64,000 nt of DNA, taken from contig CM067366.1 in NCBI GenBank assembly GCA_034401795.1, positions 69,395,514 through 69,459,513 on the forward strand, in the 5' to 3' direction. Shown here in pieces: positions 28,600-63,895 of this stretch. The translations under genes and the position numbers were made by a program. The notes below the pieces were generated by a model. The model searched no databases, was not told the origin of the DNA, and saw nothing but the letters and a program-made list of their open reading frames with translations. The stretch is from Chaetoderma sp. LZ-2023a. Lineage: Eukaryota > Mollusca > Caudofoveata > Chaetodermatida > Chaetodermatidae. Each line of letters starts with the position of its first letter. Position 1 is the first letter of the stretch.

Positions 28600-28991
28600 A
28601 ATGGACCTTTCCAGTTTTAGCTATGCCCCGCCCATCTCTATTTAAACTCTACCCACACGTCGTTCGTGTTGAGATCGATCGATCTCTGAACTTCCTGACT
28701 ATCAATTTCAAGAAAACTATACGGGTAAAGCTGTTGAATATTTTGAAACTAATTTGACTGGGTTCTGTTGCTGTCTATGGCAACCGCACCAAGTCAAATT
28801 AGTTTCAAAATATTCAACAACATGTTTATTCAATAGCAAAGACATACAATTCGTACGTGTTAGACTATATTACGAGTTTAAGACGGAATAAATCTAGTCA
28901 TTCATGACATAATTGATTATGACGTTAGCCTACATGACACGTAGTTGATTATGACATCATATGATGGATGGATAAACTGGGAACGTCCATT
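28600..28991 (+). mobile_element. CRE/hairpin MITE, copy A
   Basis: It runs from AATGGACCTTTCCAG to GGGAACGTCCATT. In order: TAGCTATGCCCCGCCCATCT, CTCTACCCACACG, GATCGATCGATCTCTGAACT, a weakened donor-like GGGTAAAG, the hairpin 28732-28820, then TTTAAGACGGAATAAATC, TGATTATGACGTTAGC and TATGACATCATATGATGG. The CREs are mutated here. A second, truncated start lies just upstream at 28541-28580. Confidence 0.8.
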
Positions 28992-29135
28992 TAAATGGAA
29001 GCTGTTACTAGAGGCAGTAACGGCATCTATATCAACCCCACCACCCAATATGCAGTTTCTCCTGCATTCATTAGCTCACTGGGTGAAAACACATGGCTGT
29101 CATCGAGCAATCAAAATTGAGTTTTTGGTGGTTGT
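28850..29135 (+). repeat. Direct duplication, unit 1 (MITE tail plus flank)
   Basis: It matches 29494-29777, including about 145 bp beyond the MITE end (GCAGTAACGGCATCTATATC, CCACCACCCAATATGCAG, GCTCACTGGGTGAAAACA). Shared flanks imply segmental duplication, not two insertions. Confidence 0.8.
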
Positions 29136-29390
29136 ACACCAGCGTCTTTGTTATTGACACAGCAAAAGATAGAATATTGACATCGGAGTGGTAAGAGTTA
29201 AACTCTTAAATCTAACGGTTTCGAGGAGATTTAATTAAGCAACAATAGTCATATCATTCAAGAACAAACTAGAAATTGACTTCAAGAAACGAACTTTTGA
29301 GTTAGACTGCACAAGCCATACTACCACAAAAAACACTGAGGCAATAACAAGCCAATGGCTTATGCCTCGTAAAATGATGATGATGATGAT

Positions 29391-29635
29391 CACGCTCGTG
29401 TTGGGACTGATCGATACCTGAACTCCCCGGCTATCATTTTCCAGAAAAAATATGTACAGGTACGCTTTTTGAAATTAATTTAACCGCATAGAATTCGTAC
29501 ATGTGTTGGACTATTAAGCGTTTAAGACGGACTAAATCGAGTCATTCATGAGGTACTTGATTATGACGTCAACCTATGCGTCACGTACTTGATTATGACG
29601 CCACATTATGGATGGATAAACTGGAAAGGTCCATT
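29391..29635 (+). mobile_element. CRE/hairpin MITE, copy B (5' truncated, hairpin lost)
   Basis: It starts at CGCTCGTGTTGGGACTGATC and keeps TCCAGAAAAAATATGTACAG and a mutated donor GGTACG. The hairpin is collapsed to TTTTTGAAATTAATTTAACC. It keeps TGATTATGACGTCAACC and the end GGAAAGGTCCATT. Confidence 0.75.
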
Positions 29636-29777
29636 TAACAGGAAGCTGTTACTACAGGCAGTAACGACATCTATATTAACCCCACCACCCAATATGCAGT
29701 TTTTCCTGCATTCATTAGCTCACTGGGTGAAAACATATGTCTGTCATCGAGAAATCAAAATTGAATTGTTGGTGGTT
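29494..29777 (+). repeat. Direct duplication, unit 2
   Basis: Counterpart of 28850-29135, with similar bases throughout and the same non-MITE flank. Confidence 0.8.
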
Positions 29778-30884
29778 GATGCATTTTGACCACTGGGTCG
29801 AATTTAAACAAACATGACTTGATTGATATCTGGATACTCCTCCTCTTTATAGAAGCACCAGTTATGGCTACATAACTGTAGCGAGTAGTAATGTTTCAAT
29901 AACTACATGTCCTGAACCCCCTGACTTATTTAAACAAACCTGTTGTGAACAATGCTAGATGGATAGGCTTGCGAACTTATAGAGCCATACCGAAACTTTA
30001 ATGACCATTTTGGTCGACGATCATGTCAGATTTCCGATATCTTTCATAAATAAATGTTTTAATGCTACTGAACCGCTTGGGAGACAAGCAAATGTTGCTG
30101 AAATCCATTCCGACAGTGCTACATTTTAAGAATTCTGTCAATTCAAATACTTATGCTTCAGGTGAGCGACACTAGCGACTTGGGCCTCTTCTTAAATTTT
30201 TCACTTTTCAAACATTAAATAACTCAAGTTCTACTAAATCGTGTATGCAATGATAATATTTAGCATATTGCTAGTCGGAACGTCTACACATTCTATAAGC
30301 TACTATCAAATTCTAATATTACCCTTCTGCAAATTTCTAAGAAATATCCAAATACAATTCAAGTAAAGATAACAACACCGAGGCCAATGACGACCATGGT
30401 GTGAAGAAGAAGCTAACGACTACAACGTCAAAAACAGCGGCCGTGGCGGCGACATCAACATCAGTGTCCACTGCCGATGCATTGTCCTATTGCACGGTCT
30501 CGGTTTCAGTTTCAGTTTATTTACCCTCCAGCGCTGCTCCCGTATTGAGCAGCGGAGCTATCTGAGAGGGCGTATGTTAGTACGTTGGCGCTGCCGCTAC
30601 CGTTACATTCTCGCAACACCATCGGACCGTAGGAATTACGTCGTAATTCATCGTACGTCTGTCTGGAGTTACGACGTTACGAAGGGATACCCCTCTGCCG
30701 CTTTAACAACTGATACTAAGCACGAACGTTGCTACTATTACTGTCGATACCACAACAACTACACCTACTAAAACTACGATCAATCTTCAGTCTTCTGTCT
30801 TTTCTATGAAGGAAACATGTCATTAACATATGCGCCGAGATACTGCACACATACCTGCAAAATACTATAAGTACAACTGCAATA
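29778..30884. other. No gene seen
   Basis: The end of a CTCACCTGG-type repeat (CAGGTGAGCGACACTAG, TTGGGCCTCTT) lies at about 30160-30192. A short GC-rich patch follows at 30360-30720 with the mirrored GCGCTGCTCCCGTATTGAGC. A 93-codon open frame (30490-30771) is basic and Tyr/Arg-rich with no motif. Confidence 0.4.
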
Positions 30885-62690: not shown

Positions 62691-63223
62691 ACGTGAGGAA
62701 TAGATGTTGAATAAGCATGCATATTAAACACGCGCTAAGAGAATAAATAGGGTGAAAACCAAGTTAGCCATAATTATAATAGCCTGCCGCGCCAATGTAG
62801 AGATACGTATCAGCCAAGTTGCGGACCTCAACAGCTGACGATTACCCAAAGATTCACTGTCCTGATAATCCATAATCTCTGAATGAGATCAACTTCCGTA
62901 ATTTCCGTTGGATTATGGGACGTGGTGGTCGAGTCAGTGGAATTGCATTAGGACTGGATTTTAGATTCATGATGTACTCAAATAGTCTCAATGGCCAAGA
63001 TAATGACAATGTTTATGTTTTAGTAGAAACTGTGTGAATGGGAGTGAGTGCGTGCGTACGTACGTTATACATGGGTGCGTACGTATGTGTGTGTGATCGT
63101 TCCTTTGGTGGTTCATTTATTTGACCACGTTGTTCACGCGCGTTTATGTCATGCCACCTGTCAGTTCTGAGCTACAGGACTAGATATTTTCCTTTGAAAT
63201 GACAGTGTCTTAATTTCACAAGG
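62691..63223. other. No gene seen
   Basis: Short GTACGTACGT-type alternating purine/pyrimidine tract at 63050-63085. Nothing coding. Confidence 0.4.
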
Positions 63224-63290
63224 ACAACAACAACAACAACAACAACAACAACAACAACAACAACAACAACAATAACAATAACAACAACAC
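63224..63290 (+). repeat. (AAC)n microsatellite
   Basis: About 22 units with AAT variants at the end. Confidence 0.95.
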
Positions 63291-63297
63291 AGGAAAG

Positions 63298-63402
63298 CTG
63301 TTGAATATTTTGAAACAAATCCGCCTGGAAACTGTTGCTATTGTTAATGCTCCACGCAGCCACAACTGCCAGGTAAGTAAGTTTCAAAATATTCAGCAGA
63401 AT
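63298..63402. repeat. Diverged solo hairpin
   Basis: CTGTTGAATATTTTGAAACA and GTTTCAAAATATTCAGCAG with a loop of altered sequence. It is preceded by ACAGGAAAG, a mutated donor motif, and has no CRE tail. Confidence 0.75.
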
Positions 63403-63524
63403 ATTCCTTGCATCAAAACAAGTTGTCGTTTCTGATGAGGGTTAAATGGTTACCGATGTTCTTCTCTAAAGAACCTGAATTCCCGGATTGCAAAGTTAGC
63501 CAATGGAGTGTTTAAAAGGTTAAT

Positions 63525-63895
63525 GGATGTATCAAGTTTTAACTACGCCCCGCCCATCTCTAGCTAAGCACCGCCCACGTTTTCGCTCAATCCACGCACT
63601 TCATGAATCTCAATTTCCAGAAAACTATAAACTGTAAGCTGTTGAATGTTTTGAAACTAATTTGACTGGGTGCTGTTGCTGCCTATGGCAGCAACAGCGC
63701 CCAATCAAATTAGTTTCAAAATATTCAACAGAATGTTTATTAAATAGTAAAGACATACGAGTCAAACAAGTTGACGGACTACTAAGCGTTTATGACGGAC
63801 TAAATCCCGTCATTCATGAAGTAATTTATTATGACGTCAGCCTACATGTGACGTCGTTGATTAAGACGTCATATGATCGATCGAAAAACTGGATT
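63525..63895 (+). mobile_element. CRE/hairpin MITE, copy O
   Basis: TATCAAGTTTTAACTACGCC, CCGCCCATCTCTAGCTAAGC, ACCGCCCACG, hairpin 63639-63731 with 45-bp arms around a 3-base loop, GCGTTTATGACGGACTAAAT, TTATGACGTCAGCC (perfect CRE), and ATATGATCGATCGAAAAACT. The most regular hairpin in the window. Confidence 0.9.

Follow-up and report, generated by a model that had tools for sequence, protein, structure and literature searches.

According to the sections of PMC4482050 that deal with the PHIS superfamily, three of its groups are told apart by their targets and ends. ISL2EU elements duplicate the AT within A/AT/T, have terminal inverted repeats (TIRs) of 6-259 bp that usually start with GG, and carry genes for a transposase with DDE, helix-turn-helix (HTH) and THAP domains and for a YqaJ exonuclease; Spy elements enter AAATTT with no duplication; and Pangu elements make a 3-bp ANT duplication and have TIRs that start with AG or GG. 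Here we describe F1, a family of ~395-bp repeats in a stretch of 64,000 nucleotides from the mollusc Chaetoderma sp. LZ-2023a (assembly GCA_034401795.1, contig CM067366.1; hereafter the window, C8:69395514-69459513 of the 2.44-Gb host assembly in which the genome searches were run). F1 is probably a miniature DNA transposon inserted at AATT by a transposase of the PHIS superfamily, most likely of the ISL2EU group.

All fifteen positions at which a reading of the region 28600..63895 from the letters alone (the sequence-only reading) had noticed a repeated unit of ~400 bp proved to be copies or fragments of this single dispersed family, as recovered with an nhmmer profile built from ten window copies and then run against the whole 64-kb window (Table 1). 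Their identity to the 395-bp consensus ranges from 75 to 91%, a divergence that in part reflects subfamily differences; nine lie on the forward strand and six on the reverse, and the profile search added two right-end fragments upstream of that region. The copy at 29392 is probably a local duplicate of the one at 28600 and no independent insertion, since the two share the flank past the right end. The left end reads AATGGACCTTTCCAGTTTT, a terminus of the AATGGACC type common among the copies, and 13 of its letters (ACCTTTCCAGTTT) return in inverted form close to the right end. At the right terminus the copies at 28600, 29392, 47820, 59851 and 60630 are CCATT-like, that at 33327 has TCATT, those at 36092, 52302 and 61205 have GAATT, and the remaining six have another terminus or none, so that the pair of ends first proposed holds on the left but varies by subfamily on the right. 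With its ~395 bp, inverted ends, high copy number and dispersal in both orientations, together with the empty sites described below, F1 is supported as a miniature inverted-repeat transposable element (MITE), the class to which it had been assigned. Rfam and tRNA scans of the window gave no match, exact F1 strings had none in viral contig or genome contig collections, and a literature search returned no description of the family, one motif string matching one unrelated insect paper.

An exact search of the genome for the 27-bp left end gave 4110 matches (reversed control 0); just two of these lie in the window, so that the whole family probably exceeds this number several-fold. With copy E as query, the search scored the copy itself and 39 others at 94-98% identity, of 1400 candidates. 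Copies of this young lineage are up to 98% identical to copy E, and 21 of them (20 fetched plus E) have a mean identity of 98.4% to their own consensus; having been chosen for their likeness to E, they describe one lineage only.

In the young copies the arrangement is AAT-GGACC…GGTG-AATT, with flanks that begin directly outside AAT...AATT and no duplication farther out. Empty sites were sought by joining left flank, AATT and right flank for 20 of these copies and comparing the joined flanks with the window and 21 loci only; matches spanned the join in 5 of the 20. The copy L014 has clear empty sites, with AATT at two places in the window (Table 1) and at L009 (GGTCG-AATT-CCAAGA), and L013, which lies inside a palindrome copy, has AATT in 7 of 8 rows. 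A further F1 copy is nested at the AATT of a tandem unit in a locus with YqaJ and DDE genes (C2), where the adjacent unit is uninterrupted and reads CACAATTGAGCAAATT. F1 enters AATT, at least at the clear sites; a TTAA target of the piggyBac or Kolobok type does not agree with the empty sites at L014 and at the nested copy, which are AATT.

Among the PHIS groups compared, F1 appears to fit ISL2EU best, an assignment that rests on the target and the left TIR and from which we infer the mover itself. The part of PMC4482050 on ISL2EU gives exactly A/AT/T as the target and GG as the usual start of the TIRs. After AAT, the left end of F1 begins with GG in 19 of the 21 young copies (GA in L018 and L022; the left flank of L016 is AAC instead of AAT), and the right TIR is of the GG type in CCATT-ended window copies such as those at 28600 and 29392. 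F1 differs from ISL2EU elements in its ~395 bp with a palindromic core, in subterminal repeats that contain cAMP response elements (CREs), and in the right end of its young lineage, to which we return below.

DDE, THAP and YqaJ genes of ISL2EU type occur in the host genome. Profile searches gave 150 scored matches to PF13359 (of 2519 candidates) and 67 to PF09588, and a manual comparison of the two lists placed a DDE match within ~4 kb of 16 of the YqaJ matches. One such pair was confirmed by Pfam as a 442-aa HTH+DDE open reading frame (ORF) and a 331-aa YqaJ ORF in convergent orientation; a different family has a THAP domain in two halves, located at the start of the DDE ORF or upstream of it, the second half scoring 24.0 against a cut-off of 23.9. 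None of three candidates supplied the ends of an autonomous partner: F1-like sequence beside YqaJ genes is a nested insertion (C2/C16/C1), AATGGACATTTTCAA-like strings between converging genes are located inside the elements, and the C1/C4/C12/C15 family showed no clean terminus when two copies were extended by 4.5 kb each, the left-hand point at which these copies part falling within a palindrome and the right-hand one beside retroelement sequence. As a separate observation, the ISL2EU-like loci L039, L044, L046 and L048 with L059, L060, L061 and L065, where YqaJ and DDE genes are convergent, are 93-98% alike over most of ~5.7 kb at four places and contain palindromes of the F1-core group; recent activity of these loci is possible.

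Several results weigh against insertion of F1 at A/AT/T by an ISL2EU-type enzyme. In more distant paralogues the empty site differs: those of L012 have CATT in 7 of 8 rows, AATT being supported by one row, the seven rows of L015 read AACT, AAAT, AACG or AATA, and the paralogues of L009 read AGTA. A duplication search with an offset scan over ten window copies gave no signal (best z 2.8 among 2,772 tests). The young copies fit A[AT]...[AT]T, [AAT]...[AAT]T and AA/.../TT alike, and their right end begins with TC, not GG, after the same A-AT. Finally, no autonomous element with F1 ends was recognised in 60 transposase/YqaJ loci of ~3.4 kb each. The F1 pieces closely examined there are the nested copy (C2/C16/L062) and a copy in the L076-L086 group, which is truncated and not a native end since homology continues past the TIR; beyond these, F1 pieces occur in L040, L049, L058, L074, L080, L088 and the C1/C4/C12/C15 family.

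The ambiguity of the target is what would favour another PHIS group as the mover, either Spy (AA/element/TT, no duplication) or Pangu (an ANT duplication, here AAT), an alternative that we regard as unlikely. PMC4482050 and PMC11304231 attribute to Spy an AT-rich palindromic target, and the F1 sites, both filled and empty, are compatible with the absence of duplication; Spy needs AAATTT, however, and the base before AAT in the 21 young copies is C in 11, T in 6, G in 3 and A in just one. Pangu, as characterised in the corresponding part of PMC4482050, shares with F1 the possible reading of AAT as a form of ANT and TIRs that may start with GG. Its middle base should vary, whereas A stands at the left end in 21 of 21 young copies, and the CCATT-ended window copies, with AAT on the left and ATT on the right, have no 3-bp duplication and fit only A[AT]...[AT]T and AA/.../TT. 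The empty sites give AATT where they are clearest, which is as much of the target as they define, AT, AAT or no duplication being equally compatible with the young copies.

The palindromic core is not particular to F1. Outside F1 copies, the window has about twelve loci with palindromes of the F1 group, some matching weakly, and exact matches to the 25-bp hairpin arm number 83,458 genome-wide (control 0). Hairpin loci number 88 in 304 kb of fetched sequence (shuffled control 0), a count that gives no density since the sequence was chosen for its F1 copies or transposase genes and includes partly overlapping loci. One recurrent carrier of the core is F2, a MITE of ~220 bp with TTAACCCTTTCAC...GTGAAAGGGTTAA-like ends, which belongs to the TTAA-ended MITEs that we presume to be piggyBac-like or Kolobok-like; F1 shares its core and differs in having ends of the AATT type. 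F1 looks composite on account of this common core.

It could be argued from this abundance that the palindrome is the true mobile unit and entered F1 and F2 separately. We consider this quite improbable. The alignment of F1 and F2 comprises the palindrome and 45 ungapped bases on its left (score 46, against a maximum of 32 in 2000 shuffles), a homology larger than the palindrome, and for a palindrome-only element no terminus or duplication was defined. In the old copy L the alignment reaches the TTAA of F2 (score 34, with no separate null), which it does not in five other F1 copies tried. Nesting of F2 in an ancestor of F1 would be the likeliest history, judging by these alignments; on the right of the core, F1 and F2 gave no significant alignment (P 0.47), which counts against it. 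A core-less ancestor of F1 was looked for by a gapped pattern (52 places, control 0) and not established. Thirteen of the 52 places look alike, and the three of these that were fetched represent one insertion carried by another repeat, since their flanks are common on both sides; of the other five fetched, four (L093, L095, L097, L100) have differing break points. A comparable build, in the part of PMC6887750 devoted to it, is that of the composite MITE MER6, which likewise carries and spreads a domain shared with an element family unrelated to it; MER6 combines a Mariner origin with the V domain of a short interspersed element (SINE), whereas F1 would combine ISL2EU-type ends with the palindrome of a TTAA-ended MITE. 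A larger inverted structure lies at 26979-27310 of the window: two diverged palindromes are arranged inversely, and between them are flanks common to both.

Returning to insertion by an ISL2EU-type enzyme, a transposase encoded elsewhere in the genome, most likely of that group, would bind both ends of F1, excise the element and insert it at AATT, and one of the ISL2EU-type enzymes of this genome may be the one that moves it. The CCCCGCCC/CCACCC boxes of the left end lie in a 21-bp unit (TAGCTATGCCCCGCCCATCTC, TAGCTAAGCTCCACCCACACC) present roughly twice there and roughly three times in copy L, and the right end contains repeated units like TTGATTATGACGTCA. Transposases commonly bind to repeated units in the subterminal region, and both sets would be subterminal transposase sites rather than host promoter elements. 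One MITE would have become nested in the other, the composite would then have been amplified, and the scattering of perfect TGACGTCA motifs through the genome would be a by-product of that amplification.

The sequence-only reading had instead seen in the copies promoter-like boxes, a splice donor, a hairpin and CREs, in one order. The order is right and common to the copies, and few single copies contain every module intact. GATCGATCGATC, allowing at most one mismatch, occurs 10 times in the window against 0.07 in shuffles, with three matches outside F1 copies (39576, 39599, 40192). We measured intactness as the exact motif in the 11 copies of the main subfamily, counting only copies fully aligned at that motif: CCCCGCCC is intact in 6 of 10, CCACCCAC in 8 of 10, GATCGATCGATC in 3 of 10, CAGGTAAG in 5 of 11, and the three CREs in 2 of 7 (CRE1), 7 of 11 (CRE2) and 6 of 11 (CRE3). 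Ranked among all 8-mers of the same copies, CRE1, CRE2 and CRE3 stand at percentiles 22, 79 and 64, CAGGTAAG at 53, CCCCGCCC at 71 and CCACCCAC at 96; only CCACCCAC stands out, and most boxes decay like the rest of the element. The young lineage does not guard its CREs: intact TGACGTCA is missing from 5 of the 21 copies, single in 9 and double in 7, and CAGGTAAG is found in none.

Concerning the hairpin, described earlier as near-perfect, 8 of the 15 copies retain both arms (28600, 33327, 34480, 36092, 50255, 59851, 61205, 63525), and it is deleted or rearranged in the other seven. The palindrome is the best-kept stretch of the element, with 690 of 735 letters conserved (93.9%) versus 2699 of 3106 elsewhere (86.9%; Fisher P 2.4e-8, the copies not being independent). 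Compensatory change was looked for and rejected: among 328 pair cells in 8 copies, 291 are unchanged, 36 have changed on one side (29 breaking the pair, 7 giving G-U) and one on both. The arms drift apart independently. Arms at one locus are 0.847 alike versus 0.829 across loci (window and L002-L008), and in other loci, where families are mixed, own and foreign arms compare at 0.736 versus 0.663.

That F1 carries host regulatory modules under selection, with GC boxes, CREs and splice donor serving as portable promoters or enhancers, is very unlikely: besides the common module order and the genome-wide CRE excess described below, it could appeal to a mild CpG decay (C to T 9.3% at CpG versus 6.2% elsewhere in 11 copies, 13.9% versus 6.7% in 15) and to the above-average intactness of CCACCCAC and two of the three CREs, but it is contradicted by the ordinary CRE percentiles and by the young copies devoid of TGACGTCA and CAGGTAAG. 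The boxes are better taken, from their distribution among copies, as components of the repeat, for which promoter, splice donor and CRE are labels; as functions, these are not supported.

The spread of CREB/ATF sites, which had also been suggested, though as a conjecture, is borne out for the motif and not as regulation. In the window TGACGTCA occurs 23 times, against 0.57 in shuffles, and 20 of these lie inside F1 copies. The genome contains 398,896 occurrences, compared with 28,785 expected under a first-order model of the window and, at the rate of 0.57 per 64 kb seen in its shuffles, ~21,700; the reversed pattern, found 41,418 times, is a poor control since it has no CpG, and the excess is ~10-18 fold. 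In the human genome, by the figures given in the relevant part of PMC1796609, canonical CREs stand at 25% of expectation. The context of CRE2 and CRE3 in F1, ATTATGACGTCA, occurs 146,125 times with both strands summed (441 expected, 417 in the control), so that at most 37% of CREs have this context, sites with it on both sides being counted twice. Within the window it accompanies 10 of the 20 CREs inside F1 copies and none of the three outside; if that ratio held genome-wide, F1-like elements would carry ~73% of all CREs, a figure extrapolated from one F1-rich window. Another source of CREs lies at G000:C1:110925-119901, where TGACGTCA is spaced by multiples of ~345 bp, perhaps a satellite.

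Table 1. Copies of F1 and related features in the window, with position, strand and basis.
Feature	Position	Strand	Basis
F1 right-end fragment, upstream of 28600	25883..26010	+	profile
F1-like right-end fragment, old, upstream of 28600	26340..26430	+	profile
F2-like copy, MITE with TTAA ends and a core palindrome of the same kind	26731..26942	-	E 4.4e-36
F1 copy A, full length, left end AATGGACCTTTCCAGTTTT, right end GGAACGTCCATT	28600..28993	+	nhmmer; 90.7% to consensus
Left terminal inverted repeat of copy A	28600..28618	+	sequence
Palindromic core (hairpin) of copy A	28732..28819	+	
F1 copy B, without left end and most of hairpin	29392..29637	+	profile, consensus alignment
F1 copy C, full length, with hairpin	33327..33731	+	profile, consensus alignment
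F1-like copy D, diverged (78%)	34480..34880	-	profile, consensus alignment
F1 copy E, young lineage, genome-search query	36092..36482	+	profile, consensus alignment, genome search
Second paralogous empty site for L014 copy, GGGCG-AATT-CCAAGG	36634..36965	+	joined-flank comparison
F1-like copy S, old, partial (75%)	41250..41560	+	profile, consensus alignment
F1 copy F, left hairpin arm deleted	41660..41996	-	profile, consensus alignment
Paralogous empty site for L014 copy, AGGCG-AATT-CCAAGG	42679..43065	+	joined-flank comparison
F1 copy G, left hairpin arm deleted, right end of GGATTCATGAAT type	44250..44580	-	profile, consensus alignment
F1-like copy H, diverged (78%)	47810..48165	-	profile, consensus alignment
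F1 copy I, four TGACGTCA	50255..50672	+	profile, consensus alignment, motif count
F1 copy J, hairpin mostly deleted	52303..52556	+	profile, consensus alignment
F1 copy K, duplicated hairpin apex	59830..60294	-	profile
F1-like copy L, diverged, with repeats of the 21-bp left unit and a core aligned at its left edge to F2 TTAA end	60630..61020	-	
F1 copy M, full length, hairpin shortened	61205..61606	+	profile, consensus alignment
Palindrome of related lineage, long perfect stem, outside F1 copies	62593..62694	.	
Palindrome of same group, outside F1 copies	63287..63409	.	
F1 copy P, full length, near-perfect hairpin	63522..63902	+	profile

The window also contains repeats of other kinds. At 438-2457, retroelement ORFs, presumably of DIRS type, encode domains of reverse transcriptase and RNase H (PF00078, PF17917); a 22/44-bp unit, GCAGGAACCAATGCCTAGAAAC, forms tandem arrays in two blocks (9088-9967 and 11520-12992), and a further tandem array with periods of 160 bp and 310 bp occupies 14521-16061. 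At 27574-27630 there is a hairpin repeat, AGCTCACCTGGCC...CCAGGTGAGCTTATGCCATGGCG, which we believe to occur in mollusc genomes; a literature search with these strings returned no relevant paper. The empty sites of L014 lie in diverged fragments at 42645-43731 (ORFs on the reverse strand) and 36634-36965, which we take to be similar to long interspersed elements (LINEs), and the two ORFs of 42645-43731 gave no Pfam domain.

F1 is an abundant MITE, ordinary in kind, that looks composite and has an unusually CRE-rich right arm. Judging by the motif counts, its copies contribute part, perhaps most, of the CRE excess of this genome. It is doubtful that a composite ISL2EU-type MITE seeded most of the ~400,000 CREs, enough to reshape the responses of genes to cAMP/CREB or ATF. 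With F1, a target of transposition and a likely group of transposases can be linked to a repeat of very high abundance. The family also lends itself to a clean test of whether a signalling network is rewired by the binding sites that transposons carry or ignores them.

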